Shown here one piece after another: positions 12,588-34,517 of a stretch of 35,460 bases of DNA. The stretch comes from Lysobacterales bacterium. Its GTDB lineage: Bacteria; Pseudomonadota; Gammaproteobacteria; Xanthomonadales; Rhodanobacteraceae. The notes below the pieces were generated by a model. That model worked only from the letters and a program-made list of their open reading frames with translations, was not told the DNA's origin and made no database searches. A program made the translations under genes and the position numbers. How positions within the stretch are numbered: the first letter of the stretch is position 1; each line of letters begins with the position of its first letter. Where the stretch lies: assembly GCA_017305055.1 (NCBI GenBank), contig JAFKMZ010000069.1, forward strand, positions 1-35,460. Reading direction: 5' to 3'.

Positions 12588-13007
12588 TCAATTGGACAGG
12601 ACGATGTCCGTGATGATGCCGGAGGCGATGGCGATGAGGAGGAAATCGCTGTTGTCGCTGCGCACCCATCGGTAGCCGCGGGGTGGTGGACGCAGGTCGT
12701 ACGCGCTCCAGTTGGTCACGTAGTAGCGGTCGGCACGATAGTGTCTGGGCAGGTGGCCACCACGCTTGTACCAACCGAGGTGCCGGCCATTGTCGTGCGC
12801 CACGTAATAGCGGCCGCGGTCATCGTGGATGCCGCGTCTGTCGCGCCGGTACTTCACCTTGCCATGGTGCCGGCCGTGCCAGCCGTTTCCCTGCTGCCCT
12901 TGCTGTCCCTGATGATCCTGACGGCCGTGATGCTGCGGTGGACTCGCCGTCACCGCGGTGGCAGCAAACAGCAGGCTGCTTGCCAAGGTAACCAGAAGTT
13001 TTTTCAT
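12588..13007 (-). CDS. RcnB-like periplasmic protein
   Basis: A 139-residue protein with a cleavable signal peptide (MKKLLVTLASSLLFAATAVTA) and a His/Gln/Gly-rich linker. The C-terminal domain has the RcnB pattern: GGHLPRHYRADRYYVTNW, then PPRGYRWVR and a final hydrophobic strand LLIAIASGIITDIVL. E. coli RcnB is a periplasmic factor in nickel/cobalt homeostasis; metal specificity here is not shown. The start is the ATG at 13007 with AAGGA 8-9 nt upstream. Confidence 0.85.
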   Translation of the reverse strand: MKKLLVTLASSLLFAATAVTASPPQHHGRQDHQGQQGQQGNGWHGRHHGKVKYRRDRRGIHDDRGRYYVAHDNGRHLGWYKRGGHLPRHYRADRYYVTNWSAYDLRPPPRGYRWVRSDNSDFLLIAIASGIITDIVLSN

Positions 13008-13141
13008 GACGTGGTTCCTTGAGGGGAAGAAGCGCCGACGGCCATCCGGGTGACGGGTACCGACGCAAGCCAAAGCCTAACGATCATCCCTGAACACCAG
13101 CGGTCCACCGGCATACCAGGCTGAATCGGCATTCACCCAGC

Positions 13142-13242
13142 CACGTCGCGGTAGCCCGCATGAGCGCGACGTATATGCAGCCATGCTGCACCTACTTTGT
13201 CCTGGGGCGGAACGGCGTAGTCCGTGGCCGAAGCGGAGCTGC
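13142..13242 (+). pseudogene. Relic of a GNAT acetyltransferase gene
   Basis: In one frame this stretch reads RMSATYMQP...TYFVLGRNGVVRGRSG. That aligns with HMYAAYTQP...AYFVVERDGAVSGGGG of the intact GNAT at 11961-12449, with about 11 identities in 25 core positions and no gap. The match fades on both sides, and there is no complete domain or plausible start. The 256-bp gap around it otherwise holds only the rcnB upstream region. The similarity is by eye and moderate. Confidence 0.45.
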
Positions 13243-13263
13243 GAACACCATGGACCATGCGCC

Positions 13264-13602
13264 TCAGGCCGGTTGGCGGGCACCATCCCTGATGTCGGGC
13301 GACACGGCGCGCAGGAAGGTGAGCCGCGACTGCGGCTCGATGATCAGGGGACCGAGCTTCGCGTTGAACAGCTTCCCGGATGACGTAGCCAGATGTGTCT
13401 GGAAGGCCGCTTCGTCCACATATTCTTCGTACACGAAAAACGATCCAGGCTCGTCCAGCCGGTGTGAGGCCTGGAAGAGTACGTTGCCGGGCTCCCGGCG
13501 CACGCTCGCGGCGTAGGCACAAAGCAGATCGGCTACCACGGCCTCATTGCCAGACCTGGCGGTAAACGTCGCATACAGAATGACGGGCACCGCAGCGCTC
13601 AT
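13264..13602 (-). CDS. Antibiotic biosynthesis monooxygenase (ABM) domain protein
   Basis: A 112-residue protein of the dimeric alpha/beta-barrel (YgiN-like) type. It has VILYATFTARSGNEAVVADLL at 7-27, then REPGNVLFQASHRLDEPGSF, VYEEYVDEAAFQTHLAT and a strand near the end. Such proteins include cofactor-free monooxygenases, but the fold is also used by sugar mutarotases, so the reaction is open. A GGAGCAGGA ribosome site precedes the ATG. It is the last gene of the LacI-linked sugar operon, 40 bp after the fructokinase gene. Confidence 0.82.
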   Translation of the reverse strand: MSAAVPVILYATFTARSGNEAVVADLLCAYAASVRREPGNVLFQASHRLDEPGSFFVYEEYVDEAAFQTHLATSSGKLFNAKLGPLIIEPQSRLTFLRAVSPDIRDGARQPA

Positions 13603-13642
13603 GTCCTGCTCCAGATCCAGGGGCCGCGCGTCTTGCTGCTGG

Positions 13643-14635
13643 TCATGCTTGCTCCTCCATCAGAAGATTCACCTCGGCCAGAGCCGGCATCGCGGCAAAT
13701 GAGCCGCGCCGGGTCACTGCCAGCGCACCGGCGGCCGCGGCAAAGCGCAGGCTCTCCTCGATCTGCGCACGGTCGCCGCAGAACGCGTCCAAATCCGACC
13801 CGCAGGCGAGCCGGCAGCCGAGCTGGTACAGGAAGCCACCGACGAAGGCGTCCCCAGCGGCGGTCGAATCCTGCATCGTGACCCGAAACGCCGGCACCTC
13901 TCCCGTATCCCCCCGCGTCCGCCAACGCAGTGGACGGCCGCCGTCGGTGATCAGCAGCAGCCGGGGTCGCCCGCGCCACAGCCGCGCGAAGACCTTCACA
14001 TCATCTCCGCCAGACGCCCGGCACAGCCAATCGAACTCCTCGCGCGAAACCTTGACCACATCGGCAAGCGCCAATGCCTGCCACAGGCGTGGCGCCGGAT
14101 CGGAATCACGCGGCCACAGCATCGGCCGCAGGTTCATGTCGAAACTGACGATCGCGCCGGCGGCGGCAGCCCGACGCATGCCTTCAAAAGTGACCTGCGC
14201 AATCTCCTCTTCGGTCATGCTGACCGAGCACACATGAAGCATGCTGATGTCGCCGAACGTCACCCGGTCGAAATGCGGAATGCGGAACAGCATGTCGGCG
14301 CCCGGCGAGCGATAGAAGCTGAAGCTGCGCTCGCCGTACGTATCCAGCGCCACGAAGGCCAAGGCCGTGCCCGCTGCATCGGTACGCACGACACCGCCGG
14401 TGGCCACCCCGGCATCCTGCAGGCTCTGCAGCAGGAAATCACCGAACATGTCCTGGCCGAGCATGCCGATGAAATTGCTTCGACCTCCAAGCCGCGCCAC
14501 TGCCACTGAAACATTCGCCGGAGCCCCGCCTGCGAACTGCCGGAAGCTGCGCGTTGCGCCTGGCCTGTGCGGTGGCTCAGCCAGCATGTCGATCAAGGCC
14601 TCACCGAAGCAGGCGATCCCTCGCTGCGTACCCAT
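13643..14635 (-). CDS. PfkB-family carbohydrate kinase, probable fructokinase
   Basis: A 330-residue ribokinase-fold sugar kinase. It has FGEALIDM at the N-terminus, PfkB signature 1 as FAGGAPANVSVAVARLGG (about 34-51), and signature 2 as DSTAAGDAFVGGFL, whose last Asp is the catalytic base. The usual GAGD tetrad reads AAGD here. The overall pattern is that of fructokinases acting on free fructose, and the neighbouring sugar symporter and reductase fit. The gene starts 8 bp after the aldo/keto reductase stop, which suggests translational coupling. Confidence 0.88.
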   Translation of the reverse strand: MGTQRGIACFGEALIDMLAEPPHRPGATRSFRQFAGGAPANVSVAVARLGGRSNFIGMLGQDMFGDFLLQSLQDAGVATGGVVRTDAAGTALAFVALDTYGERSFSFYRSPGADMLFRIPHFDRVTFGDISMLHVCSVSMTEEEIAQVTFEGMRRAAAAGAIVSFDMNLRPMLWPRDSDPAPRLWQALALADVVKVSREEFDWLCRASGGDDVKVFARLWRGRPRLLLITDGGRPLRWRTRGDTGEVPAFRVTMQDSTAAGDAFVGGFLYQLGCRLACGSDLDAFCGDRAQIEESLRFAAAAGALAVTRRGSFAAMPALAEVNLLMEEQA

Positions 14636-14643
14636 GCCGCAGC

Positions 14644-15480
14644 TCAGCTCATGTCTTCAAAATCTGCCGGGTCGGGGCCCAGCCGGGTCCCGGCATCGAG
14701 TCGGGCCATGTATCCCATGTCGCTGTCGTCGAGCGCGAAATCGAAGATCGCCATGTTTTCCGCAATCCGCGCTGGAGTGACCGACTTCGGAAACGCCACC
14801 AGGCCGAGTTGCATGTGCCAGCGCAGGATGACCTGGGCAACGCTCTTGCCGTGCCTGCGGCCAATCGCCTTGAGGCCGGAGTCAACCAGCAGCTCCCCTC
14901 CATGTGCCAGCGCACTCCACGACTCGGTGACGATCTGGTGCGCTGCTCCATAAGCCCTGAGCTGGGCCTGCTGCAGCAAGGGATGCAACTCGATCTGATT
15001 GACCGCGGGCAGTACCCCCGTCGCGTCGATGATGCGGTCGATGTCCTCCGCGCGGAAGTTCGACACGCCGATCGAGCGTACTTTGCCGGCGCCGCGTGCT
15101 TCGATGAGCGCCTTCCAGCTGTCGACGAAGCGGCCATGCCGCGGGCACGGCCAATGGATCAGGAAGAGGTCGATGTAATCCAGGCCGAGCCTGGCCAGGC
15201 TGGCATCGACCGCCTGAAGCGACTCGTGGAAGCCCTGGTCCGGATTGCGCAACTTGGTGGTGATGAACAGCTCGGAGCGCGGTAGGCCGGAGGCACGGAT
15301 CGCGCGTCCGAGGCCTTCTTCATTGCCGTACCCCGCCGCGCCGTCGACATGGCGGTAGCCAAGGTCGAACGCGGTGCCCACGACACGGGCAGTGTCGGCA
15401 TCGGGTACCTGCCAGATACCCAGTCCGAGCTGCGGGATCCGGTGACCGTCATTGAGCAGGATTGATGGAATATCAGACAT
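14644..15480 (-). CDS. Aldo/keto reductase
   Basis: A 278-residue NADPH-dependent (alpha/beta)8-barrel reductase. The catalytic tetrad is visible as D46 and Y51 (HVDGAAGYGNEEGLG), K76 (ITTKLRNP) and H109 (FLIHWP). GVSNF and AFPKSVTPARIAEN supply the cofactor-binding region. The start is the ATG at 15480 with GGAG 6-7 nt upstream; the in-frame codons before it are not family-like. In this operon it probably reduces a carbonyl compound made from the imported substrate. The exact substrate is not shown. Confidence 0.92.
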   Translation of the reverse strand: MSDIPSILLNDGHRIPQLGLGIWQVPDADTARVVGTAFDLGYRHVDGAAGYGNEEGLGRAIRASGLPRSELFITTKLRNPDQGFHESLQAVDASLARLGLDYIDLFLIHWPCPRHGRFVDSWKALIEARGAGKVRSIGVSNFRAEDIDRIIDATGVLPAVNQIELHPLLQQAQLRAYGAAHQIVTESWSALAHGGELLVDSGLKAIGRRHGKSVAQVILRWHMQLGLVAFPKSVTPARIAENMAIFDFALDDSDMGYMARLDAGTRLGPDPADFEDMS

Positions 15481-15543
15481 TGGATCTCCGTAAGCAAAAG
15501 GGCCCATGGCGCGCCAGCACGGGCAGCGGGTTCGATCACGCCA

Positions 15544-16827
15544 TCACTGGAGCGCGCGCGGCGCGCGCAAGGCGTATCCCAGGACCACCAGGAAGCCCAC
15601 CGCCGGCACCGCCATGGCCCAGTGGATGCCGGCCAGGTCGGACACGCCGCCCATCAGTACCGGCAACAGCGCGCCGCCGATGATGGCCATCACCAGCATG
15701 GAAGAGCCCAGCTTGCGATGGTCATCATCCAGTCCGCTCAGGCCGAGCACGAAAATGGTCGGAAACATGATCGACATGAACAGGCTGACCCCGACCAGGG
15801 CATACAGCCCGACATGGCCTGGCAAGGCGATGGCTACCGCGCAAAGCAGCACATCGACCAACGCGAAGGCGGCCAGGAGGTACGCCGGAGCCACCTTGCG
15901 CAGCATCACGGTGCCGAGAAAGCGACCACACATGAACAGGACCAGCGACAAGGTGAGATAGCTGGCGGCAGTCTTCTCGGGTGTCCCGGGGATGACATCC
16001 TGGAAATAGCGGATCAGGTAGCTCCAGACCCCGACTTGCGCACCGACATAGAACAACTGGGCGATCACCGCGAAGACATAGTTCCCGTTGCGCAGCAACT
16101 CGCGGAGTTGCGCACCGGTGCCGGTTTCCTTTTGCGCCGTGCGTGGGATCACCGGGAACTTTACCGACGCGATCAGGACCGCCCACATCACCACCAGCAC
16201 GCCGATGATCAGGTACGGCATCTGCACTGCCATGGACTCGGTCGCGAGATACGCGTCCCGCGCGGCCGGAGCCATGGCGGCCAGTTCCTGCTCCTTGTAT
16301 TCGATACCGGAAAAAATAAAGTGTGAGCCGATCGCCACACCGGTGATGGCGCCGAGCGGGTTGAACGCCTGCGCCAGGTTGAGCCGACGCGCCGCACCCT
16401 CGGCCGGGCCAAGCATGATCACCAGCGAATTTCCGGAGGTTTCCAGAAAGGCCAGCCCGCTGGCAATCACGAACAGGGCAAGCAGGAACAGGCCGTAGGT
16501 ATGAATCTCCGCAGCTGGGTAGAACAGGAACGCGCCGGCGCCGAAGAGCAGCAAGCCCAGCACCACGGCCGCCTTGTAGCTGTAGCGGTGCATGAACATC
16601 GCCGCCGGCATCGCAAACAGGAAATAGCCGAGATAGAACGCACTCTGCACCAGCCCGGCCTGCAAATCGGAAAGCTCAAACGCCTTCTTGAACTGCTTGA
16701 TCAGGATGTCGTTCAGGCTCGCCGCCGCGCCCCAGAAGAAGAACAGGCTGACCACCAGCACCAGCGGCACGACCGCAGTACGCGCCAGGTTGGCGGCAGA
16801 TAGCACGTCGCTGTTATTACCTTGCAT
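15544..16827 (-). CDS. FucP-type sugar:H+ symporter (MFS)
   Basis: A 427-residue inner-membrane transporter with 12 hydrophobic segments. Features typical of the FucP/GluP branch are SLFFFWGAAASLNDILIKQFKKAF near the N-terminus (Asn-Asp in helix 1), AMPAAMFMHRYSYKAAVVLGL, FLETSGNSLVIMLGP and NLAQAFNPLG. Members carry fucose, glucose, galactose or fructose with protons. A GGGCGG-like ribosome site precedes the ATG. It lies 46 bp after the oxidoreductase gene and 63 bp before the aldo/keto reductase gene. Confidence 0.92.
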   Translation of the reverse strand: MQGNNSDVLSAANLARTAVVPLVLVVSLFFFWGAAASLNDILIKQFKKAFELSDLQAGLVQSAFYLGYFLFAMPAAMFMHRYSYKAAVVLGLLLFGAGAFLFYPAAEIHTYGLFLLALFVIASGLAFLETSGNSLVIMLGPAEGAARRLNLAQAFNPLGAITGVAIGSHFIFSGIEYKEQELAAMAPAARDAYLATESMAVQMPYLIIGVLVVMWAVLIASVKFPVIPRTAQKETGTGAQLRELLRNGNYVFAVIAQLFYVGAQVGVWSYLIRYFQDVIPGTPEKTAASYLTLSLVLFMCGRFLGTVMLRKVAPAYLLAAFALVDVLLCAVAIALPGHVGLYALVGVSLFMSIMFPTIFVLGLSGLDDDHRKLGSSMLVMAIIGGALLPVLMGGVSDLAGIHWAMAVPAVGFLVVLGYALRAPRALQ

Positions 16828-16873
16828 GGCGCACCGCCCTTTGGGCCAAATCGGGTATCCGGAAACGATACGA

Positions 16874-18889
16874 TCAGTAGCTCACGCTGTTGCGCATGTT
16901 GAGGCGCAGTTCGCTCACCGCACGGCGGGCCTGATCGATGGCGTCGGGTGTCGAATCGCGGGCCGCAGCATCGCAATTGGCGATGGTGACGTTGCCAAAG
17001 GGAAGACGCGCCCGTTCGTGAGGGGGTTGCTCGCCCCGGTCGAGGAATTCGTCAAAGACCGACGAGTACATATAGGAATAACCGTGTCCCCACCGGTTGA
17101 GGGTGATGCCGGCGATATCGCGATCAGCGTCGAACCCGTACGGACCAAGCATGCGCGTGAGCTGGTCGCGCAGCTTGGACTCATAGGTCGCAAAGTCGGT
17201 GGCGTACATCTCCGCGCGGGCAGCGCGGTACTGGTCCTTGACCGACAGGCCCGGCGTCTCAAAGACGCGCAGCATGGTCAGCACCGTCGGTTCGTCGGGC
17301 GAGGTCGAACGCTTGTAGCCGCCGATATCGACCGGGCATTCGAGCAGGATCTGCGAGTAATAGCCGTTGGGCGCATTGATGAAGCAGGCGCCAGCCTTCT
17401 TGAAGGCACGCCAGTTGCGCAGCCAGACGTTCACCCACAGGTTCACCGCGTGCACCTGGTAGCGCAGCGCTTCCTTCTGCCAATCAGGCAGTTCGGGGCA
17501 GATGTAGGGAATGACATGGTGCCAGCAGGCCAGCACGCAATGCCGCGCGCGGACCCGGTACAGCTTGCCGTCGCGGGAATAGATGACTTCCACCCCACCC
17601 GGCTTGTTGGCAACGTGGACCGCCGTGCTGCTCAGCCGGATCCGGTTCTGGTTGCCGGCCAGGTCCAGGCGGGCATAGTCGGCCCGCTGCAGCATCGAGT
17701 CGGCGAGCGTCTTTCCGGGCAAGGCCTCGGGAATGAGCTGGCGGACGATCAGGCGGGCGATGGTCGCGTTGCCATCGGGGAAGTGGTATTTCGGCAGGGG
17801 TTTGCGTGTTGCTGGTGACGGCTGGTTCGGGATGGTGCGCAGCGGATACTCCGGCCCCAGATCCATGCCGATGAAACCGGGCATCCCCCGCCGCATGGCG
17901 GCAATCGCCGACATGCCTGAGAGGCCGCGGGCACTACCGAACGTGCGGTCGCGCAGGTAGCTGACCACCATCGGGTCGACCTTGGCGACCTTCAGCAGAT
18001 AGTCGCGGTAAGTCATCTTGCGCAGCCTCGCCACGCGCTCGGCTGGCGTCATGCCTGGCAGGAAGTCCGCCTTGGCCGTGTACAGCCGATAGACGTCCTT
18101 GCGTGCCTGCTCGTTCATTGGCGCACGGGCGAGAAAGTCAGCCCAGCGCTTGGCCTGGTCCGGCGGCACGTTCGGATCGTGCAGGGCAATGAACTCGATC
18201 CACGGCGCCGGGTCATCCATCAGCAGATCCTGACCAAACGTGGCCTGGTCGTAATAGACCCGCTGTCCCATGCCAAGGCGCTGGTAGAAATAGGTGTCCT
18301 GGTTCTCGCGATTGAGCTGGGCTATGTCCTCGATGCCGATCGACTGCATGAAGCTGCGTGCGTTCTCGCTGCCTGGAGAGATGTCGAACGTGCCCGCGTT
18401 GGATATGACGGTACGGTTGCCAAAGTCGAACTCGTTGCGCTTGGCGTGGCCGCCGAAATCATCGTGATTGTCGAGAACAAGGGTACGTGCCTTGCCACCA
18501 CTGTCACGGACGTAGAACAGTGCGGCGGACAGGCCGCTGATGCCGCCCCCCACGACGATCAGGTCGTACTGCTCGCCCGTGTCCTCGATCGGCTCCTTGT
18601 CGATGTGCAGCGTATGGTCACGCATGGCGTGGCCGGCCACATAGGCCGGAAAGCTGCTGCCACGCATGCCGGTAAGGACCGGTGGATACGTGCCCTGGGT
18701 CGCCGCCGTCGCCGCGGCTCCCGCGCCCCTGGTTGCAGCTGGGGCCGACATCCCGGCAGCGGATGCCAGCACCCCCGGCGCGAGCCCGGAGGCCGCCAGC
18801 GCCACCGAGCCCTTGAGCACGCCGTTGATGAAGTCACGACGCTCGATGTTGTCGACGACGCCCAGCCGTTCGTCGTTCTTCTTGCTCAT
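16874..18889 (-). CDS. Twin-arginine FAD-dependent oxidoreductase, spermidine-dehydrogenase-like
   Basis: A 671-residue flavoprotein. The N-terminus has a Tat-type signal, ERRDFINGVLKGSVALAASG (twin Arg 17-18), so export to the periplasm is likely. An Ala-rich linker and PPVLTGMRGSSFPAYVAGHA follow, then a Rossmann FAD site with VVGGGISGLSAALF near residues 112-125, and LVLDNHDDFGGHAKRNEFDFG. The MRGS-F--AHA-RD block and the NHDDFGGHAKRNEF motif recall the spermidine dehydrogenase (SpdH) group of the amine-oxidase superfamily. The substrate here is unknown. Its place between a TonB-dependent receptor and a sugar symporter suggests a sugar or amino-sugar compound rather than a polyamine; that is inference. 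Confidence 0.82.
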   Translation of the reverse strand: MSKKNDERLGVVDNIERRDFINGVLKGSVALAASGLAPGVLASAAGMSAPAATRGAGAAATAATQGTYPPVLTGMRGSSFPAYVAGHAMRDHTLHIDKEPIEDTGEQYDLIVVGGGISGLSAALFYVRDSGGKARTLVLDNHDDFGGHAKRNEFDFGNRTVISNAGTFDISPGSENARSFMQSIGIEDIAQLNRENQDTYFYQRLGMGQRVYYDQATFGQDLLMDDPAPWIEFIALHDPNVPPDQAKRWADFLARAPMNEQARKDVYRLYTAKADFLPGMTPAERVARLRKMTYRDYLLKVAKVDPMVVSYLRDRTFGSARGLSGMSAIAAMRRGMPGFIGMDLGPEYPLRTIPNQPSPATRKPLPKYHFPDGNATIARLIVRQLIPEALPGKTLADSMLQRADYARLDLAGNQNRIRLSSTAVHVANKPGGVEVIYSRDGKLYRVRARHCVLACWHHVIPYICPELPDWQKEALRYQVHAVNLWVNVWLRNWRAFKKAGACFINAPNGYYSQILLECPVDIGGYKRSTSPDEPTVLTMLRVFETPGLSVKDQYRAARAEMYATDFATYESKLRDQLTRMLGPYGFDADRDIAGITLNRWGHGYSYMYSSVFDEFLDRGEQPPHERARLPFGNVTIANCDAAARDSTPDAIDQARRAVSELRLNMRNSVSY

Positions 18890-18904
18890 GCTGCCACCAC
18901 GAAA

Positions 18905-21445
18905 TCAGAAGTGATAATCGAGACGAACGAAATAGTAGCCACCCATGGCATTGATGGAGTCGCCGGAGTCGTACATCCAGGCATAGGTGGCCCGGTTGCT
19001 CGCGCTCATCGCCTGGGCCGGCAACTTGCTCGGCTTTTCGTTGAAGACGTTGTCCACCCCGGCGGTCAGGCCCAAGCCATTTGCAAAGTCATAACCACCG
19101 TAAAGCGATGTGATCAACTTTGGGCTGATCGAGTACTTGTAGTTGTTGGCCAGACGCTTGACCGGACCGTAATGGGTAAGATTCACGCCCACATTGAATC
19201 CACGCAACTTCCAGTCGAGGCCTGCGATCTGCGTGTAACGCGGCGACCGGTAACGCATGTTGTAGATGGTCGATTGGTTGAGCAGTGCCACATACGGCAG
19301 GTCCGCCAGCAGAGGTGAAATTCCTTCCTCGCGGGTGACCTGGGTGCGCACCGTATTGAGTGCGTAGTTCCAGGTCCAGACCCCGACGTCAGTGGAAAAG
19401 CTGCCATCCGCGGTGAACTCCACTCCGCGGGTGCGCGTGGCACCCACCGTGCGCAAGTAGCTCACGAACAGGCCCTTGCTCGGAGTGATCACGTAACCCG
19501 CAGGAGCCAGCAGCCCGTCAATGACGCCCATCTGGTGTGCATTCAGCACGTTGCCGTAGTAGTCGACAACCCGGTTCGGATCCGTGGCGTCATAGCCCAC
19601 GTAGGTCGACATGCCCAACTGGTCGCGGACATCGATCTGGTAGGCGTCCACGGCGAGGTGCACGCTGTCGACCGGGGAATAGGTAAAGCCCAGACTGTAG
19701 TTCTTCGACTTCTCCGGCTTGAGGGGGACCGCACCCAATGCCGTGGCCACCGGGGACGATACGCGTGCATTGATCCAGCGCTGGGTCGGTGTATCCGAAG
19801 TGAGCTGGAAATTTTGCGCGGCCAGTGACGGGGCGTGAAAGCCGTTGCTGACGGTGCCGCGTATGCCGAAGCGCGGGGTGAAATCGAAGCGGGTGGAAAG
19901 CCGCCCAGTGGACACGTTGCCGAAGTCGGAGTGATCCTCGAAGCGCCCGGCAATATCCAGATACCAGCGCTTCGTGACATTCGTCGCCGCGCCCAGGTAG
20001 GCAGCCGTGCTGTGCCTGGTGCCGTGAACGGCGTCGGCCGCCGGATAGCCGGTGTAGGCGGTGATCCCCTTCCCGGTCCAAGACGCCAACTCACCCGCGC
20101 CACGGGTGTAGCCCTCCTGCTGGTACTCCACCCCGGCGCTCAGCCCCAATGGCTCTGCGAATGCCGGGACATCGAAGCTGCGATGCAGGTCCACGTTGCC
20201 TACGTTCTGGGTGTAGGCCAGCTTTCCCGAATACACGTCGGTCGGGCCGCCAGGATAATCGTAGGAATAGTTGGCCGAATGCTGCGTGTAGACCTTGTAA
20301 TCGTCGCTGTTGCGCGTGAAGCTGACATCCCAGTCCCACTCCGCCACCGTGCCTTTCAGGCCCAGCACACCGGTGTAATCCTGCTCCTTGCCGACCGCGC
20401 GTGGCGTGAATCCGTTTGGATAAATGCTCTGGTACAGGCCCAGGTTGCTTTGCCACGTGGTATACGGCGTTCGGGTGGCTTGGCGCGTACTCATGCGGCG
20501 ATCACTGAAGGTCGCAAATGAATACAGGGTCATCGCACTCGTGAGGTCATATTCGAGGTTATAGGCACCCGACTTCAAGGTGTACGCTGGCGTGCTGTAC
20601 GAATAGTCCTTGACCTCGTTGCGCTTGCTTTCATCCGGATTGGCGGTTGTCCCGGGGCACAGGCTGTTGTAGGTACAAAGCTTGGTCAGGCCGCCACCGG
20701 CTGCAATGGCCGGATACACCAGGTAGGTGTCGCGATAGGGGCGGTTGCGGGACGCTTCCTGCTGGTCCGTATAGCCGAGTGTGGCGTTGAAGAACCCGCC
20801 TTCACCTAGCGGCAGGCCGAAGTTCACCCCGTATTTGCCCCGCGTGCCGCCGCCGTCAAAACTGCTGCCACCCTCGACCGAGGCAACGCCGCCGCTGGTG
20901 TTCGACTTGAGGATGATGTTGATCACGCCAGCGACCGCATCCGAGCCATAGATCGCCGAGGCACCATCACGCAGCACTTCGATATGGTCGACGGCCGCCA
21001 TCGGGATCAAGGCAAGGTCGGTGTAGTTCTGTCCGGGAAAGCTGGTGTCACTGGTATAGGCGCTGACATTGCGACGCTTGCCGTTGACCAGGACCAGGGT
21101 GTACCCGGGCGACAGGTTGCGCAGCATCGCACCGCGAACCTGACCGTCCAGGCCGCTGCCATAGGTCTGCAGGCTCAGCGACGGAAGCTTGGTCAGCAAC
21201 GCCTGCACCAGGTCACCCTTGCCGGTGGCCACCAGATCATCCGCGCTGACCACGTCAATCGGGGCGGGGCTGTTCTCCACCGTGCGGATGCTGCTCCGCG
21301 AGCCGGTAACCACGACCGTGTTCAGGTTCTGGGCCTGCACATCCTGCTGCGCAAAAACGTCCACCGGAACCGTCGACGCGGCCAAGGCAACGGCAATGGC
21401 GGCAAACAACGAGTGGTGGGCGCGCGTACGTGATGCCTCTTTCAT
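18905..21445 (-). CDS. TonB-dependent outer-membrane receptor
   Basis: An 846-residue outer-membrane transporter for TonB-driven uptake. The signal peptide spans about 1-32 (LFAAIAVALAASTVPVDVFA). NLNTVVVTGSRSSIRTVENS resembles a TonB-box region. The plug domain has PGYTLVLVNGKRRNVSAYTS and MAAVDHIEVLRDGASAIYGS. The beta-barrel ends in YYFVRLDYHF with a terminal aromatic. The start is the ATG at 21445 with AGGGAGA upstream. It heads the sugar operon, 15 bp before the flavoenzyme gene, and two LacI-type palindromes lie 40 and 143 bp upstream. Substrate identity is not evident; the neighbours suggest a carbohydrate. Confidence 0.95.
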   Translation of the reverse strand: MKEASRTRAHHSLFAAIAVALAASTVPVDVFAQQDVQAQNLNTVVVTGSRSSIRTVENSPAPIDVVSADDLVATGKGDLVQALLTKLPSLSLQTYGSGLDGQVRGAMLRNLSPGYTLVLVNGKRRNVSAYTSDTSFPGQNYTDLALIPMAAVDHIEVLRDGASAIYGSDAVAGVINIILKSNTSGGVASVEGGSSFDGGGTRGKYGVNFGLPLGEGGFFNATLGYTDQQEASRNRPYRDTYLVYPAIAAGGGLTKLCTYNSLCPGTTANPDESKRNEVKDYSYSTPAYTLKSGAYNLEYDLTSAMTLYSFATFSDRRMSTRQATRTPYTTWQSNLGLYQSIYPNGFTPRAVGKEQDYTGVLGLKGTVAEWDWDVSFTRNSDDYKVYTQHSANYSYDYPGGPTDVYSGKLAYTQNVGNVDLHRSFDVPAFAEPLGLSAGVEYQQEGYTRGAGELASWTGKGITAYTGYPAADAVHGTRHSTAAYLGAATNVTKRWYLDIAGRFEDHSDFGNVSTGRLSTRFDFTPRFGIRGTVSNGFHAPSLAAQNFQLTSDTPTQRWINARVSSPVATALGAVPLKPEKSKNYSLGFTYSPVDSVHLAVDAYQIDVRDQLGMSTYVGYDATDPNRVVDYYGNVLNAHQMGVIDGLLAPAGYVITPSKGLFVSYLRTVGATRTRGVEFTADGSFSTDVGVWTWNYALNTVRTQVTREEGISPLLADLPYVALLNQSTIYNMRYRSPRYTQIAGLDWKLRGFNVGVNLTHYGPVKRLANNYKYSISPKLITSLYGGYDFANGLGLTAGVDNVFNEKPSKLPAQAMSASNRATYAWMYDSGDSINAMGGYYFVRLDYHF

Positions 21446-21484
21446 TTCGGTCTCCCTCTGACCACGAATGGTGGGCGATTCGGT

Positions 21485-21498
21485 TTGGATCGATCCAA
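21485..21498. promoter_or_regulatory. LacI-family operator O1 upstream of the receptor operon
   Basis: The perfect 14-bp palindrome TTGGATCGATCCAA lies 40 bp before the receptor start codon. Its central CG step is typical of LacI-family sites. Identical copies lie at 21589-21602 and 22768-22781. Confidence 0.85.
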
Positions 21499-21587
21499 TT
21501 CCCATTGCAAAAAAAAACCCAGCTCACCCAGCATCCACGCGCCTGATACGGTATGGACGAGGTCGCTTCCTGCGCCGAGCCTTATGT

Positions 21588-21603
21588 TTTGGATCGATCC
21601 AAA
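21588..21603. promoter_or_regulatory. LacI-family operator O2 upstream of the receptor operon
   Basis: The 16-bp perfect palindrome TTTGGATCGATCCAAA. Its centre is 104 bp from O1, close to ten helical turns, which would allow a repression loop. It lies in the gap between the regulator gene and the receptor gene. Confidence 0.85.
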
Positions 21604-21676
21604 TTCCCGTTGTCTTTTTAGCATGAGTCTTCTGCAAACCACACGCTGCGCCGCAACATCATGGCGACCCAGCGCG

Positions 21677-22762
21677 TCAGCCTGGTGGTGATGCGGCCAT
21701 CTCGGCGGGAGCGGCCACAAGGGGCGAAGTGCTCTCGCGTTCAATCAGCTGCACGTCGACGATCACCGAGCGGCGTTCCATCTGCAACGGATCGCTGACC
21801 CGTTGCAGCAGCAGTTCCGCGGCCTGGCGGCCACGTGCACGCGGGTCGGCGTTCATGGTCGACAGCGGCGGAATGCCAACTGCCGCCTCAGGGATGTCGT
21901 CGAAACCAATCACGGCAAAATCATTGCCGGGATGACGACCCAACTGGGTCAGGCCAAGCATCAGCCCCAACGCCACGGCATCGTTGTAACAGACGGCCGC
22001 CGTCGCTGCAGGCTCGAGGGCCAGGAGCGCGTCCGCCTGCGCGCGGGCGTCGAGCCGGGTTGGCGTTGTCTCGATCAGCCACTCCGCTTTCACCTCGATG
22101 CCGGACGCACGCAGCGCATCCTGGTAGCCGGCCCGACGCTCCCGGCACGAACTGGAATCCGCGTGGCCGCCGTAGAAGGCGATGTGCCGATGGCCGATGG
22201 ACAACAGGTATTCAGTCGCGGCCCGCACGCCAGCGCGATTGCCCAGGCCCAGGAAGTCATAGCTGAAGCCGGACGGCTGGGTTTCCACCAGTTGGCGATT
22301 GAACACCAGCAGCGGCGTTTCCTTGCCGATCACCAGCTCGATTTCATCGACACTGCTGGTCTCGGCGGGCGAGAGGATAATCCCAACCGGGTTGTGCTCC
22401 ATCAACGACCCGAGCACCTGGCGTTGCTTCGTGCGCGATTCGTTGCTGCTGCCGAGCAAGGTAACGTAGCCCTTGGCGCCCAGAACCTCGTCCACGCCAG
22501 CCGCAAAATCGGCAAAGAACGGGTTGGACAGATCGTTGATGACCAAGGCCACTGCCGTGGACACCCGCTGGCGCAAGGTGGCTGCCGCGCGGTTGTAGAC
22601 ATAGCCCTGACGACGCATTTCCGCTTCGACCTGCTGACGCGTGTTGGCATGCACCAACGGACTGCCGCGGAGCACCAGGGAGACCGTCGAACGCGACACG
22701 CCGCACGCCCGGGCAATGTCGTTGAGGGTAATTCGATGCGGGCGATTCAAGTGGGTTCCCAA
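21677..22762 (-). CDS. LacI-family transcriptional regulator
   Basis: A 361-residue repressor-type protein. The N-terminal helix-turn-helix is ITLNDIARACGVSRSTVSLVL, followed by a hinge helix and a periplasmic-binding-protein-like ligand domain (VALVINDLSNPFFADFAAG, GFDDIPEAAVGIPPLSTM). The frame opens at TTG 22762, without a good ribosome site. A second TTG at 22750 has GGGA about 6 nt upstream and may be the true start (357 residues). A palindrome identical to those before the receptor operon lies 5 bp upstream of the first TTG, so the protein probably represses itself and the downstream operon. The effector is likely a sugar from the pathway. Confidence 0.93.
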   Translation of the reverse strand: MGTHLNRPHRITLNDIARACGVSRSTVSLVLRGSPLVHANTRQQVEAEMRRQGYVYNRAAATLRQRVSTAVALVINDLSNPFFADFAAGVDEVLGAKGYVTLLGSSNESRTKQRQVLGSLMEHNPVGIILSPAETSSVDEIELVIGKETPLLVFNRQLVETQPSGFSYDFLGLGNRAGVRAATEYLLSIGHRHIAFYGGHADSSSCRERRAGYQDALRASGIEVKAEWLIETTPTRLDARAQADALLALEPAATAAVCYNDAVALGLMLGLTQLGRHPGNDFAVIGFDDIPEAAVGIPPLSTMNADPRARGRQAAELLLQRVSDPLQMERRSVIVDVQLIERESTSPLVAAPAEMAASPPG

Positions 22763-22767
22763 TTGGC

Positions 22768-22781
22768 TTGGATCGATCCAA
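22768..22781. promoter_or_regulatory. LacI-family operator O3 at the regulator gene
   Basis: TTGGATCGATCCAA, identical to O1. It lies just before the lacI-type start and 97 bp upstream of the divergent short-chain dehydrogenase gene. Autoregulation is the likely role; an effect on the divergent gene is possible. Confidence 0.83.
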
Positions 22782-22878
22782 CGCAGCTATCGTGTGATAA
22801 GACCGCAAGGACTGCAAGCTGCACCAGCGCCAGCTCCGCTAAGATGACGGGCTTCAGGCGATTCTCAAGGACAGCTGC

Positions 22879-23646
22879 ATGCAACTCGATCAGGTCAAGG
22901 CCATCATCACCGGCGGCGCCTCCGGACTTGGCCACGCCGTGGCGCAGCACCTGGTGGCCCACGGCGGCCAGGTCGCGCTGTTCGACGTCAATGGGGAAAA
23001 GGGCGCGGCGGCCGCCAGCGCCCTGGGCGACGCCGCCCGCTTCTACCGCACCGACGTCACCTCCGAGGAGAACGTCGCCACCAACGCCGCCGCCGCGCAC
23101 GCGGCCATGGGTGGCTTGAACGTGGTGATGAACTGTGCCGGCATCCTCGGCGCCGGCCGCGTCCTCGGCAAGCAGGGCGCGATGCCATTGACCACCTTCG
23201 CGGGCACCATCGGGGTCAACCTGATTGGCAGCTTCAACGTCGCCAAGGCCGGTGCCGCGCTGATGCAGGCAAACGAACCGGGCGAGGACGGCGAGCGCGG
23301 GGTCATCGTCAACACCGCCAGCGTCGCCGCCTACGAGGGCCAGATCGGCCAGGCTGCGTATTCCGCATCCAAGGGCGGCGTGGTCGGCATGACCCTGCCC
23401 ATGGCGCGCGAGCTGGCCCGCTTCGGCATCCGCGTGCTGACCATCGCCCCAGGCATCTTCTGGACACCGATGGTCGACGGCATGACCCCGGAACTGCAGG
23501 CTTCCCTCGGCGCCTCCATCCCCTTCCCTTCCCGCCTCGGCAAGCCGGAGGAGTTTGCCGCCACCGTGGCCTTCATCCTCGGCAACCGCTATCTCAACGG
23601 CGAAACCATCCGCCTGGACGGCGCGGTACGCCTGCAACCGAAGTAA
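22879..23646 (+). CDS. Short-chain dehydrogenase, probable 3-hydroxy-2-methylbutyryl-CoA / 3-hydroxyacyl-CoA dehydrogenase
   Basis: A 255-residue classical SDR. The cofactor motif TGGASGLG is at 11-18, the structural motif NCAG near 85-88, and the catalytic residues are S148, Y161 and K165 (YSASK). The N-terminal pattern, the long insertion with LGKQGAMPL, and the C-terminus resemble the HSD17B10 / type II 3-hydroxyacyl-CoA dehydrogenase group, which acts in isoleucine and fatty-acid degradation. AAGGACAGCTGC precedes the ATG. It is divergent from the LacI-type gene, and efpL follows after 61 bp. Confidence 0.88.
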
Positions 23647-29802: not shown

Positions 29803-30067
29803 GTGAACGTCATGGCGTAGCCGCCTGGATACGACACCAGCCTGTCTGCCGGCAAGACATCGGCAAACGACGGAAAGAGCGTCCGCCAGCTGGCTATTCT
29901 CTGTTGTTCGCCCTCATTCCGCAAGCCGACGGGAGGTGCGTGCGTGTCCCCGGATTGCGTGCCCCTGGCCATCCGCGCTGGCCCATGTCGAACCTTGGCG
30001 CCAGTGTGCGAACCCGCGGTCCCGCCCCCACGCCAAGCCATGTGAGGCTTTGAAGGCAAAGGCGCTC

Positions 30068-30994
30068 ATGAGTCCCGTTCCAGGTGGCACAATGGCACCG
30101 AGCCGTGGTATCCGCGCTATCGACAAACTGCCTGGTGTGTCTATGGGCACTGTTCGACTCCTGTGGATCGACCTGTGCGGGCAATCGTCCGTTCGCGGGC
30201 TCTTGCAGTCAGTACCCGCAGCTTATGAAGTAGCACGGGTCGACCGGTTCGAAAGCGTCCCTGGAACGATTCGGCAGTTCCGCCCCCAAATCGCATGCAT
30301 CGAGTTCGATTACCCGGATCAAGCCCGTTTGCGGGCGGTTCCGATGCTCATACGAACATTCCCGGCGCTTCCTGTATTGATGTTCACCGAGTACCACTCC
30401 GAGGCACTTGCCGTCTGGGCATTCCGCTCAGGTGTCTGGGATTATCGCGTCAAGCCGCTCGGTGAGCGGATACTGACCCGCAGCATCGAGTTATTGGCTG
30501 CAAGCATGCAAGCCGAACGTCAAACCCCGATTCGTGGCAAAGGCTTGCCGGCGGACCTGATCGAGCCGGCTGGCCACCTGCAAAGGCCGCCCTCGGTTGC
30601 GCGCAAAACGGGGCTTGCAGTGACCTACATCGCCGGACACTTCGACGAGGACCTCTGTCGTGACGCTCTCGCAGAGCTTTGCCATCTGAGCCCATCCGAA
30701 TTCAGTCGGGCGTTCAGGCTCGAGCAGGGCTGCACCTTTGCGCATTTCCTTTTGGAATTCCGCATTGCCAAGGCCCGGGCGTTTCTTGCGGAACCGCACA
30801 TGGCGATCTCGCAGGTCGCCTATTCCTCGGGTTTCAACGACACGTCGTACTTCTCGCGGGCGTTCCGACGGCTGGGTGGTGTCACTGCGTCCGAATATCA
30901 GCGACGCGTTCGACTGGCAGCGCCCCGCTCCACACCTGCCGACACGTGCTGGATTTCCGGAGATTTGTCCAACGATCAAGCAGAATTGTCCTAG
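30068..30994 (+). CDS. AraC-type regulator with a receiver-like N-terminal domain
   Basis: A 308-residue DNA-binding protein. The N-terminal part resembles a response-regulator receiver: VRLLWIDL, then CIEFDYPD with a candidate phospho-acceptor Asp, VLMFTEYHSE with the conserved Thr, and YRVKPL with the conserved Lys. The acidic pair near the N-terminus is incomplete (one Asp), so phosphorylation is uncertain. The C-terminal part is a double helix-turn-helix of the AraC family (ALAELCHLSPSEFSRAF and AISQVAYSSGFNDTSYFSRA). The ATG at 30068 has AAAGG about 7 nt upstream; the ATG at 30143 begins exactly at the receiver-like domain and is an alternative. No sensor kinase lies nearby. The 265 bp upstream show no clear promoter. 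It probably controls the next two genes. Confidence 0.85.
   Translation: MSPVPGGTMAPSRGIRAIDKLPGVSMGTVRLLWIDLCGQSSVRGLLQSVPAAYEVARVDRFESVPGTIRQFRPQIACIEFDYPDQARLRAVPMLIRTFPALPVLMFTEYHSEALAVWAFRSGVWDYRVKPLGERILTRSIELLAASMQAERQTPIRGKGLPADLIEPAGHLQRPPSVARKTGLAVTYIAGHFDEDLCRDALAELCHLSPSEFSRAFRLEQGCTFAHFLLEFRIAKARAFLAEPHMAISQVAYSSGFNDTSYFSRAFRRLGGVTASEYQRRVRLAAPRSTPADTCWISGDLSNDQAELS
30962..30994 (+). repeat. TTGTCC-N15-TTGTCC box, copy A
   Basis: TTGTCC at 30965-30970 and again at 30986-30991, exactly 21 bp apart, with a spacer shared with a second copy at 33775-33806. It covers the last codons and stop of the AraC-type gene. Two same-direction half-sites two helical turns apart is the classic layout of an AraC-family operator. 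The boxes are also in-frame Leu-Ser codons (DLS...LS), so conservation could be protein-level. Confidence 0.5.
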
Positions 30995-31282
30995 TTGGTC
31001 ACGTTCGTCAGGCACAAAATGCGGCTTCCGCGGCCAAAAACCTCCGATCGTTGAACCGACGTATCCATTCGCAGCCGCAAGTGCGGATTTCCCCGGCAAT
31101 CCATTCCCCGACCAGCGCAACGAACGGCTCCAGGCAAGCCGTGCATGTTCAGGGGAACCGAACGCCGGATGCCGTATCGGCAATCCTGGTTGAGCCTGCG
31201 CGACTTGAATGAGGCCTGCGGGTCCGCTCATTCGGCGGCTCGAGGGTTGCTTGGTTGCATTCAGGCAGAGGGGGCAAAAGTC

Positions 31283-31600
31283 ATGACCGATGAAAGCCAA
31301 GACCTGTTGCAGGTTGAGATGCGACCGCCGGCCGCGGCCATTGGGAAGTCCGGGGCTTTGACGTCACGCTTCTGGATCGAAATGGCCCTCGGTGTGCTGA
31401 GCGCTATCGTCCTTGTGCTGACGCTTACAACACCCGATTGGATCGAGCACGTCCTCGACCTCGCGCCGGACGGCGGCAACGGATCAACCGAGTGGGGCCT
31501 GGCCATTTCCCTTGCCTTTGCAATGCTCGCCCCGTTTCTCGATGCGGCTCGGCTTCGACTGCGGCTGCGCATGGGGCAAGCATCCGCTTCGACGAAGTGA
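31283..31600 (+). CDS. Small two-helix membrane protein of unknown function
   Basis: A 105-residue protein with a hydrophilic N-terminus, one helix at about 32-51 (FWIEMALGVLSAIVLVLTLT), a short acidic loop with DGGNGSTEWG, and a second helix at about 73-92 running into a basic tail. AGAGGGGG lies 8 nt before the ATG, a strong ribosome site. I do not recognise a family. It stands between the AraC-type regulator and the beta-propeller gene on the same strand, 81 bp before the latter. The 288 bp upstream hold the TTGTCC box at their edge and a GAATGAG/CTCATTC stem at 31207-31233. Confidence 0.72.
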   Translation: MTDESQDLLQVEMRPPAAAIGKSGALTSRFWIEMALGVLSAIVLVLTLTTPDWIEHVLDLAPDGGNGSTEWGLAISLAFAMLAPFLDAARLRLRLRMGQASASTK

Positions 31601-31681
31601 GTGAAACCTCGACCCCGGTTCGCCGGGCGGCACTGTCCTGACGGCGTGCACTTATGACCCGCTTCCTTGCAGGGAAACGTC

Positions 31682-33664
31682 ATGAATCCATCCGATAACG
31701 ATCCGCACCACAAGCCCATGCCATCGACGCCACAGGAACCCGCAAGCGGCGACCAAGGCCCGCCCGACAGTCCGTACCGTCCGCCGATCCAGCCGACGAG
31801 CCATTGCGATTGCGACCAGATCACTTGTTTGCTCGACAGGATCGCACGGACGACGTGCGTCACCGCAAACGAAGTGCATCGAAACGGTGCCGCACTGAAA
31901 TCGATTGCCGCATCTCTGGCAGGGCTCTTCGAGATGTATCGCACAGTGAACCCTGCGGCTGCGCTGGAATACGACCGCCACGCGAAGCTGCTTGCGCAGT
32001 TGGATGAATGCTGTCCGCCCGCGGAACATGACGACGACATATGCAAGTACGTCCCATGCCCGCCGGGCGGTGGAGCAAGGAGGGGGGACGGCTGGTCAGC
32101 CAAGTCGCGCGGCTACGTTCCGCTGGTGCGGACTTCGGAAAAGCACCATCCCTGGATCTTCGTCGAAAGACCCCGACACGACGAAGATGCCGGACGCGGG
32201 GGTGTCCCGTTGGGGTCGTTCACAGGACTGATCGATCCGCGCCAGCCCACGCCGAAGCCCTTGGACTTCCGCAGCGGTCCCGGGCCAACGCCGCCTGGCG
32301 CGGCGGGCCCGGTCGGCTTCCGTACGTTCACCGCGACCGAGCTCGCAAAGAATTGGCCGCCGGACATGAGTGGTGCGCGCGGCGGAGACGTTGTGGTGAT
32401 GTCGGGCAACTTGTGGTTGAAGCTGTCGGTCGACGGAGGCAGGACATTCACCGACCTCGACTTCACCAAGATCTTCGCCGCAGACATCGTGTACGGTGGC
32501 TGGGCCGGTGATCAGGTCATCCACTACATTCCAGCCATCGACTGTTTTGTGCTGTACGTCCAGTCGTTCAAAGGCTCGGGCACGCAGGCCAACCGCAATG
32601 TCGTGAAGATCGCAATCGCGAGCCAGGCCGATCTCAAGAAGTTCTCCGGAGGCAAGCAGGCGTGGACGCGGCAATGGGACTTCACGCCGGATACCTTTGG
32701 GCTCGGCACGTCGTGGATGGATTTCCCCGACCTGACCTATGGCAGGGATTTTCTTCACGTCAACACCAACGTGTTCGTCGGCAGGACGGGGAAATTGTTC
32801 TACGAGCTGCCGCTTGGTGACATGGTCGCGGGGAAGGGCTTGAGCTTCCTGTTCGGGTTCATCGACGACGCAAATACCCTCACGGGCTCGCCGGCACAGA
32901 ACGTGACCAACAATGAGTTCTACTGGGCACAGCACGTCGACAATTCGCATATGCGGATCTACTCGTCGGTGGGCGGCGATCCAAACTACGCCTGGCGCGA
33001 GCGTGAAGTGCTGAACTGGCCTCGACTCGGTGACGGCAACGTCGTCGCAAAAGCTCCGGACAATCCTGATTGGGTCAGCGAGGACCATCGAATCATCGGA
33101 GCCACTCGTCGCGGCAACGAGCTGTGGTTCGCCTGGACCGCGGCGGCGAGTGACGGCGGATATGGTGGGCCACGGTTTGCGTTTGCCCACGTGCAAGTCG
33201 TGCGGTTCGACATCGGTGCGGATTACAAGCGCGTCGATCAGTTCGCCATCTGGAACGGCGATCACGCGTACTGTTATCCGAGCCTCGCGACCAACTCGGA
33301 CGGCGAAGTCGGCATCTCGCTGGCTTGGGGCGGTGGTACAACGTTGTTCGGCAGCCACGCCGTCGGCATCCTCGGCGACTGGGTCGTCTGGTATGGCGAG
33401 GCGAGCGACGTAACCGTGCTTCGCGAGCAGATCGGCGACGATGGGAAGGTTGTAAAGGACGCGTCGGGCAATCCCGTGATTGCGCCGACGCGCTTCGGCG
33501 ACTATCTCCACGTCCGGCTCGCACAGCCGGACACGCGGTGGTTTGGTGCCTTTGGCTACGCAGTCAAGAAAGACGCGGGCGTCGCGTCCCCTGAAGCCGG
33601 AAAGTTCGTCTACTACTACGTGGAGTTCGGCCGCGAGGTTCCACTCCCCTCACCGATCAGATAG
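31682..33664 (+). CDS. Large BNR/Asp-box beta-propeller-like protein with a Cys-rich head
   Basis: A 660-residue protein of no family I can name. Residues 1-40 are Pro-rich and hydrophilic. Residues 41-126 carry eight cysteines (42, 44, 49, 59, 110, 111, 121, 126) around a helical stretch (ALKSIAASLAGLFEMY). From about 230 onward the sequence is beta-rich, with an Asp-box, LSVDGGRTF, and more degenerate cases such as YSSVGGDPNYAW, as in sialidase/BNR propellers. I see no sialidase catalytic pattern. There is no signal peptide or membrane segment. The ATG at 31682 has AGGGA 8 nt upstream. It follows the AraC-type regulator and the small membrane protein, which suggests one module. Confidence 0.75.
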   Translation: MNPSDNDPHHKPMPSTPQEPASGDQGPPDSPYRPPIQPTSHCDCDQITCLLDRIARTTCVTANEVHRNGAALKSIAASLAGLFEMYRTVNPAAALEYDRHAKLLAQLDECCPPAEHDDDICKYVPCPPGGGARRGDGWSAKSRGYVPLVRTSEKHHPWIFVERPRHDEDAGRGGVPLGSFTGLIDPRQPTPKPLDFRSGPGPTPPGAAGPVGFRTFTATELAKNWPPDMSGARGGDVVVMSGNLWLKLSVDGGRTFTDLDFTKIFAADIVYGGWAGDQVIHYIPAIDCFVLYVQSFKGSGTQANRNVVKIAIASQADLKKFSGGKQAWTRQWDFTPDTFGLGTSWMDFPDLTYGRDFLHVNTNVFVGRTGKLFYELPLGDMVAGKGLSFLFGFIDDANTLTGSPAQNVTNNEFYWAQHVDNSHMRIYSSVGGDPNYAWREREVLNWPRLGDGNVVAKAPDNPDWVSEDHRIIGATRRGNELWFAWTAAASDGGYGGPRFAFAHVQVVRFDIGADYKRVDQFAIWNGDHAYCYPSLATNSDGEVGISLAWGGGTTLFGSHAVGILGDWVVWYGEASDVTVLREQIGDDGKVVKDASGNPVIAPTRFGDYLHVRLAQPDTRWFGAFGYAVKKDAGVASPEAGKFVYYYVEFGREVPLPSPIR

Positions 33665-33774
33665 CGCAAGCGCAAGGCGGCAATGCGTTACCCGGCCGAG
33701 GCCGCCGACCGGGCCGTGTTTGGCCACGTGGAGGGGGACCGGGTAGATCCTCCGACGACTTCTGGACCTCTGCA

Positions 33775-33806
33775 GATTTGTCCAGCGGTAGAGCAGGATT
33801 GTCCTG
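33775..33806 (+). repeat. TTGTCC-N15-TTGTCC box, copy B
   Basis: TTGTCC at 33778-33783 and 33799-33804, again 21 bp apart. About 26 of 32 positions are identical to copy A, and weaker similarity extends about 35 bp upstream. Read in the matching frame it gives DFWTSADLSSGRAGLS, resembling DTCWISGDLSNDQAELS at the end of the AraC-type protein. It could be a second operator or the tail of a lost second regulator gene. Confidence 0.5.
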
Positions 33807-33812
33807 GCGAGG

Positions 33813-34196: not shown

Positions 34197-34284
34197 TGGC
34201 CGTTGCCGACCTGTATGGGGCACCACAGCGGCGTTGCTGGCAACGCAAGCGAACGGGTGTACGACAGTTGATTGGCTCGGGCAA

Positions 34285-34316
34285 TAAAAGCCCTGCAAAA
34301 GCAGGGATTTTTATCA
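34285..34316 (-). terminator. Terminator downstream of tRNA-Ser
   Basis: A CCCTGC (34291-34296) / GCAGGG (34301-34306) stem with a four-base loop. T-rich runs flank it on both strands, so it could work in either direction. It lies just past the 3' end of the minus-strand tRNA-Ser gene. Confidence 0.75.
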
Positions 34317-34321
34317 AGTAA

Positions 34322-34414: not shown

Positions 34415-34517
34415 ACACGCACAAAACCTTTATCGCAACTTGCAGCACCGGGCGGGATTGTTCGGCCCCTCCTGGGCCTCACCCCTCGCTGTCGCTCGGG
34501 GCCAACCTGCGGTTGTC

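Follow-up and report, generated by a model that had tools for sequence, protein, structure and literature searches.

That a sugar compound can be oxidised outside the inner membrane, imported, and processed to completion inside the cell is already known from the use of 2-ketogluconate in Pseudomonas, which relies on the kgu operon (KguE/KguK/KguT/KguD) and in which the kinase acts before the reductase. Here we describe an operon on the minus strand of a 35,460-nucleotide stretch of DNA from a Lysobacterales bacterium (GenBank assembly GCA_017305055.1, contig JAFKMZ010000069.1, positions 1 to 35,460; this whole stretch is called the window) that would share with the kgu system the oxidation outside the inner membrane, the import of the product and the cytoplasmic kinase and reductase steps, but whose enzymes belong to different families. 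From our point of view, the best reading of this operon, held with rather less than even confidence and on the basis of sequence comparisons, is that a sugar-linked substrate would be oxidised in the periplasm, imported, reduced and phosphorylated.

Two further systems invite comparison. In the soc system of Agrobacterium, an amadoriase dependent on flavin adenine dinucleotide (FAD) is reportedly paired with a sugar oxidoreductase, a likeness to the window operon, and the functions of the soc genes are said to have been worked out by Baek et al. in 2003. In that system, however, the whole compound is taken up first and its oxidation is cytoplasmic. The flavoenzyme of the window stays under the cut-off of Pfam DAO (24.2 against 27.9 bits, residues 109-151 only), which we take to be the family of amadoriases and fructosyl amino acid oxidases. 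The soc genes serve the catabolism of Amadori compounds and opines, according to the accessible part of one source (PMC4231840). The other system is the spermidine dehydrogenase SpdH of Pseudomonas aeruginosa (PDB 7d9f-7d9j), which the available portion of its description presents as a C-N dehydrogenase and as a flavocytochrome in which electrons pass from FAD to a heme b at the surface, with His54 and His562 as the heme ligands (PMC12564564).

Against this background, the enzyme type and the gene set of the operon look new as far as a search of the open-licence literature reaches. Neither the combination of TonB receptor, fructokinase, FucP, LacI and aldo/keto reductase nor that of fructokinase, TonB, LacI and mannose isomerase was found described there, which does not prove their absence from print.

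Composition and conservation of the operon

Six genes, separated by intergenic gaps of 8-46 bases, follow each other on the minus strand. The first encodes a TonB-dependent outer-membrane receptor with Pfam Plug and barrel matches (18905..21445); the end at 21445 given in the original prediction fits the second methionine of an open reading frame (ORF) that mechanically starts at 21505, directly ahead of a signal-peptide-like stretch. It is followed by the gene of an SpdH-family flavocytochrome b, a probable substrate dehydrogenase with a Tat-like motif (16874..18889), and by that of a FucP-type sugar:H+ symporter of the major facilitator superfamily (MFS; 15544..16827; TIGR00885 with 419.7 bits, cut-off 280.4). 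The last three encode an aldo/keto reductase (AKR) of the 2,5-diketogluconate reductase type (14644..15507; Pfam, profile models and structure-sequence alignment), a PfkB sugar kinase near the Xanthomonad fructokinases (13643..14635; Pfam, profile models and homologue comparison) and a small, weakly LsrG-like protein of the ABM fold (13264..13602; profile match). Directly upstream of the receptor gene, also on the minus strand, lies the gene of a LacI-family regulator (21677..22762; PF00356 together with the sugar-binding-type PF13377/PF00532), which belongs to the unit and makes it one of seven genes.

The original prediction had placed six ORFs of these families on the minus strand, and ORF calls as well as Pfam and profile models find all of them where it had put them; its six-gene unit thus holds for these genes but leaves out the LacI gene. 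Its remark that no glycoside hydrolase (GH) is present agrees with the absence of a GH-family match in the six genes, LacI, and the SDR, GNAT and RcnB-like neighbours. Scans for promoter-like and terminator-like sequences returned about what chance would give (1 against 1.9 expected and 8 against 6.2 expected, respectively).

The check that had been proposed along with that prediction, namely whether the gene set is kept together elsewhere, was run, and all seven families are co-located in each of three other loci. These were found in one contig scan with the flavoenzyme, whose three relatives are 76-81% identical, and lie in two metagenome-assembled genomes (L021, L022) and in Stenotrophomonas nitritireducens DSM 12575 (L023). 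In all three a LacI orthologue (58-79% identity) is found upstream of the receptor gene, the receptor is 72% identical, and an orthologue of the ABM protein was assigned in L022. The gene order is the same in L021 and L022, while L023 has its kinase gene relocated to a place between the lacI and receptor genes. Since the seven-family set recurs in three of three loci and two of them share operator-like palindromes with the window (see below), the operon is more than a chance neighbourhood. To this extent the earlier proposal is supported: an exported FAD enzyme, a sugar symporter, a reductase and a fructokinase-like kinase belong to one catabolic unit and are inherited together.

Beyond these loci, no further close member of the flavoenzyme clade was found in draws of 299, 369 and 398 genomes from the order, class and phylum, which are even samples of larger groups. 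Own genome excluded, the best scores were 470, 374 and 512 bits, respectively, against 1489 for the own copy. The plasmid collection yielded 14 records, the best of them from Kozakia, and the phage collection a single, unverified record with 41.8% identity.

The flavoenzyme and its relatives

The only strong solved relative of the flavoenzyme is P. aeruginosa SpdH, with homology over residues 61-661 of 671 (phmmer E=2.7e-136 for 7d9f; E=2.1e-136 for 7d9i), and the next is a monoamine oxidase at E=0.005. Like SpdH, the window enzyme has the FAD fold and both heme b ligands (H87 and H602), and these two columns hold histidine in 41 of 42 aligned rows each, the exception at both being the same sequence (L151). 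An SpdH-type flavocytochrome that keeps both ligands is likelier to be a respiratory-chain dehydrogenase than an oxidase, and, judged in this way, the flavoenzyme is probably an electron-transport-linked dehydrogenase. The designation as an enzyme of the amine-oxidase type in the original prediction is hence right about the fold, but a dehydrogenase of the SpdH type is more likely than an oxidase. An ERRDF Tat-like motif near the N-terminus is common to the four close orthologues; the Pfam Tat model found no match in the flavoenzyme. A predicted fold from a four-row alignment was unusable (mean pLDDT 34.1, pTM 0.32).

Unlike SpdH itself, the window enzyme falls into a separate clade and sits within an operon of LacI, TonB receptor, FucP and kinase genes. 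In a maximum-likelihood tree of 42 homologues, restricted to those whose genomic contexts had been retrieved and without the additional matches of the order, class and phylum draws, this six-row clade has a support of 99/96 and comprises the window, L021, L022, L023, a plasmid copy of Kozakia baliensis and a second copy in the genome G274. A comparison of the PDB chains reveals that the depositors of the SpdH structures had mutated Asp282 (7d9i) and Tyr443 (7d9j). In the window these positions are Gly318 and Trp485, and the same replacements are present in six of six clade members, with tryptophan at the Tyr443 column in the clade only. As such, the flavoenzyme is probably not a polyamine enzyme, and the objection that it might act only on polyamines appears weakened by these replacements and by the LacI and TonB receptor neighbours. 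In the alignment, P. aeruginosa SpdH is represented by a stand-in of which the motifs match the PDB chains, namely the above-mentioned phage record (L152, OQ572403.1, Pseudomonas phage Y1, unverified); its SpdH-like gene possibly represents host DNA in the assembly.

The contexts of the more distant clade members differ from that of the window. Upstream of the Kozakia copy (L100, NZ_CP014684.1), which is 54% identical to the flavoenzyme, lie a divergent LacI gene and a broken TonB receptor gene; downstream come a multicopper oxidase, a C-terminal piece of CyoB, further annotations of the cyo type and a carbohydrate porin (OprB). Its gene crosses the start of the record, which is why it is missing from the PLSDB table; the TonB receptor is split over several ORFs, which may mean that the Kozakia version of the operon is in decay. 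The second G274 copy, on a 3.5 kb contig, also has a multicopper oxidase gene downstream. Among homologues from other clades, the one on a Deinococcus plasmid adjoins genes of the polyamine and 4-aminobutyrate (GABA) type and has Glu and Tyr at the Asp282 and Tyr443 columns, and that of Duffyella adjoins a cytochrome c gene. Genome G144 of the same order carries eight SpdH-family genes from several clades (L065, L066, L068, L070, L071, L074, L076, L077), which suggests a family diversified in substrate. Among six scanned neighbours of SpdH-family genes, four encode small cupin or SnoaL-like proteins (L066:7002-7424, L068:5271-5717, L073:2128-2664 and L104:8350-8772; two of them under the Pfam cut-off), which may be partners.

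Proposed pathway and alternative readings

In the proposed pathway, the sugar-linked substrate would enter through the TonB receptor and be oxidised by the periplasmic flavocytochrome, most likely by attack on a C-N bond in a sugar amine, for instance an Amadori compound, with electrons passing from FAD via the surface heme b into the respiratory chain. A D-arabino-configured carbonyl sugar such as glucosone would thereby be freed and imported by the FucP-type symporter, the AKR would reduce it to fructose, and the kinase would form fructose 6-phosphate. The original prediction had suggested glucosone as the intermediate, a fructosamine-like compound as one possible substrate and an opening or isomerising role for the ABM protein, all of which stay hypothetical here. 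Glucosone does arise through C-N oxidation of fructosyl-amines according to the available parts of two sources (PMC12735817, PMC8116256), and chemical reasoning suggests that C-N oxidation of glucosamine would yield it as well. As an aldehyde reductase that delivers the substrate of a fructokinase fits the step from glucosone to fructose, and glucosone results from C-N oxidation, a sugar amine is the preferred substrate. In its most specific form, in which the SpdH-type clade would consist of periplasmic respiratory deglycating dehydrogenases for an Amadori compound or amino sugar, with glucosone imported via FucP, reduced to fructose and phosphorylated, we regard the proposal as unlikely.

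For the kinase, 106 of the 131 columns invariant in eight Xanthomonad fructokinases (the paralogue of the own genome and those from seven of 29 other loci of the genus, themselves named by homology) are kept in all four cluster kinases. The paralogue, 58% identical, lies in a mannose-type module (L064) beside a GluP/FucP-type MFS gene, a GH47 gene and the gene of an AGE protein that most resembles D-mannose isomerase (240 bits against a cut-off of 600). This neighbourhood makes fructose a plausible substrate of the window kinase. The module, with its paralogous symporter (34%) and kinase, would likewise funnel its sugar to fructose 6-phosphate, but by means of an isomerase, without oxidation and reduction. 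In the L021, L022 and L023 genomes no close kinase was seen apart from that of the cluster, and the next ones reach at most 37% identity. The AKR has the Asp, Tyr, Lys and His that presumably form the catalytic tetrad of these reductases (alignment to 1a80 and 1mzr).

The symporter is identical to Escherichia coli FucP at D46, E135 and N162, which we take to be functional positions of that protein, and misses the stricter model PRK10133 (381.9 bits, cut-off 427). Since the MFS protein of the mannose module passes TIGR00885 as well (289.8 bits), a match to this model does not fix the sugar. Five loci of its nearest kin (60-72% identity, among 149 relatives) were read, and four of them (L183, L185, L186, L187) hold a catabolic set of the L-fucose type with rhaM mutarotase, enolase-family, FAH-like, SDR, amidohydrolase and AKR genes; in the fifth (L184) only rhaM and regulator genes were seen. 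The rhaM, enolase-family, amidohydrolase and fucosidase genes were named by Pfam in L185 and the remaining ones by similarity to it. These four loci proceed by a dehydrogenase, amidohydrolase and enolase-family route, whereas the kinase and flavoenzyme of the window have no match there. The D-arabino ring pattern is common to L-fucose, to D-arabinose and to fructose in its pyranose form, and fructose-like or glucosone-like sugars are therefore reasonable cargo for a FucP-type protein.

Several observations weigh against the pathway as proposed. There is no gene for an electron acceptor in the operon. The kinase reaches 214.5 of the 450 bits required by the fructokinase equivalog PRK09434 (219.9 bits for its S. 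nitritireducens orthologue) and the AKR 346.8 of the 425 bits of the DkgA equivalog PRK11565, so that both names hold at the family level. Uniform substitutions at four positions of the cluster kinases (H18L, P33Q, A53S, A172M) could mean that the sugar is not fructose. In the flavoenzyme alignment, glycine at the Asp282 column is also present in 11 rows outside the clade, and Asp282, which is not family-wide, is kept together with Tyr443 in 13 of 42 rows only, so that the loss of Asp282 alone says little. The Kozakia LacI is only 26% identical to that of the window, and the 14 kb examined at that locus gave no FucP, AKR, kinase or ABM match. Finally, the contexts of the nearest receptor kin (45-51% identity; three of four such loci read) do not point to sugars: FMN reductase, luciferase-type monooxygenase and M20 peptidase genes adjoin the receptor in L180 (by Pfam) and, judged by ORFs, likewise in L181, and a DOPA-dioxygenase-like and a GMC gene in L182.

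One could alternatively imagine that the flavoenzyme acts on a free sugar or sugar alcohol by oxidising one of its C-OH groups and that the resulting keto-sugar is imported, reduced and phosphorylated, similar to the use of 2-ketogluconate or 5-ketofructose. LacI control, FucP symporter, kinase and AKR would all suit a plain carbohydrate, and Kozakia is an acetic acid bacterium with its copy near an OprB porin gene. We nevertheless consider this doubtful, as those enzymes of the SpdH/amine-oxidase fold for which an activity is known oxidise, to our knowledge, C-N or C-C bonds, and as periplasmic C-OH oxidation is usually the task of GMC or pyrroloquinoline quinone (PQQ) enzymes.

It is also conceivable, though quite unlikely, that the enzyme cuts a glycated amino acid on its amine side to release free fructosamine and an aldehyde. 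According to the accessible part of PMC8116256, a Pseudomonas strain from soil forms fructosamine by means of a membrane-bound enzyme that cleaves the alkylamine bond and for which that part names no gene, and C-N dehydrogenation is the activity ascribed to SpdH itself in the portion of PMC12564564 at hand. However, Pfam and profile models find no deglycase or deaminase family among the operon proteins, and the match of the kinase to fructoselysine 6-kinase is weak (46 bits, cut-off 247).

A third alternative, which appears very unlikely to us, is that the sugar is of the L-fucose/L-galactose or D-arabinose type and no fructose precursor, with shifted specificities of kinase and AKR. It would account for the L-fucose loci of the nearest FucP kin, for the four uniform kinase substitutions, and for a match of the alpha-L-fucosidase type (39% identity) at L021:1679-2710, about 3.5 kb from lacI. 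Yet eight genes of one L-fucose locus, taken as queries, returned in the window a single weak SDR match (28%, to the core SDR gene), in L021 only the fucosidase-type gene, and nothing in L022 and L023, and the 106 of 131 fructokinase-invariant columns kept by the kinase speak against such a sugar as well. Lastly, a polyamine dehydrogenase that sits by chance beside a sugar operon is highly improbable despite the full-length homology to SpdH and the kept heme ligands, given the Gly/Trp replacements throughout the clade, the retention of the flavoenzyme with the same sugar-type genes in four of four genomes, and the location of polyamine/GABA genes beside the Deinococcus homologue of another clade instead.

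For the ABM protein, which misses the LsrG equivalog PRK10486 (30.3 of 135 bits) and presumably belongs to the same fold class as the rhaM-type mutarotase, a role as a sugar mutarotase in place of the rhaM-type protein of the L-fucose loci was considered and set aside.

Regulation

Three operator-like palindromes, assigned to no strand, share the core TTGGATCGATCCAA. Two precede the TonB receptor gene, namely TTTGGATCGATCCAAA at 21588..21603 (core 21589-21602) and, 104 bases from it, a second one at 21484..21499 (core 21485-21498). The third, at 22767..22782, lies upstream of lacI, with its core (22768-22781) five bases before the mechanical start of the lacI ORF, and may point to autoregulation. 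With at most one mismatch, a search of the 3,496,265-base assembly finds the 14-bp core three times, always at the operon locus, and the reversed pattern, taken as a control, not once. This restriction to the locus argues that the palindrome is very probably a private operator of a LacI protein dedicated to the operon, which may act as a repressor at the TTGGATCGATCCAA sites until a sugar of the pathway is present.

Of the other loci, L022 has two perfect TTTAGATCGATCTAAA palindromes in the interval from lacI to the receptor gene, and L021 has two of the TTTAGATCGATCTAAA form there, with one mismatched pair each. At the same stringency this form was not found in the corresponding intervals of L023 and Kozakia, and the palindrome upstream of lacI has no counterpart in L021 or L022. 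The gap between kinase and receptor genes of S. nitritireducens (L023:5857-7374) contains matches to sigma-70 region 2 and 4 domains, possibly an extra regulator.

Acquisition of the operon

We conclude that the operon is a horizontally acquired islet of about 9.7 kb. At E<=0.001 the flavoenzyme has matches in 11 of 233 genomes of the family, and no other genome of the genus is among them. A close orthologue is found only in the own genome, G274 and G276; the last two, which are not among the matches of the order draw, are the same genomes as L021 and L022 or copies of them, with the kinase at identical places. Besides the second copy of G274 (56% identity) there is one in G193 (33%), and the remaining seven genomes gave only short FAD-fold matches. 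The neighbouring SDR gene (22879-23646), by comparison, is present in 43 of 45 genomes of the genus. At 30 of these SDR loci, own included, the site was compared, and the operon is absent from all 29 others, where the operon-side neighbour within 1.5 kb of the SDR gene is an rcnB-like gene in 27 (36-62% identity to that of the window) and a pair of GNAT and HMG-lyase-like genes in two.

The G+C content of 13264-22762 is 63.0%, compared to 67.2% in the left flank and 68.1% in the right one, taken to position 30000. Such a difference would by itself be no proof of a transfer, since the rcnB-like gene also has 63% and the window beyond 30000 has 62.4%. The edges of the islet (12901-13270 and 22601-22950) have no word of 10 bases in common in direct or of 11 in inverted orientation. 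Positions 30001-35460, with a tRNA-Ser gene nearby (34322-34414), are another possibly acquired stretch.

Implications

Overall, a flavocytochrome family that is known for its part in polyamine use is here connected with an operon of the sugar type that carries a regulator of its own. The accessible part of PMC12564564 states that the substrates of two distant SpdH homologues are not known, and for one clade of the family the operon narrows the search to sugar-linked compounds. Its proteins form a closed set that is easy to assay, and growth could serve as the phenotype to screen. If the substrate is an Amadori compound, the flavoenzyme would be a peroxide-free deglycating enzyme, possibly capable of direct electron transfer, and as such useful for glycation sensors. 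Should the deglycating reading be true, the islet would represent a peroxide-free and mobile route for Maillard products, unlike the cytoplasmic Frl/Gfr kinase-deglycase and FAD-oxidase systems.

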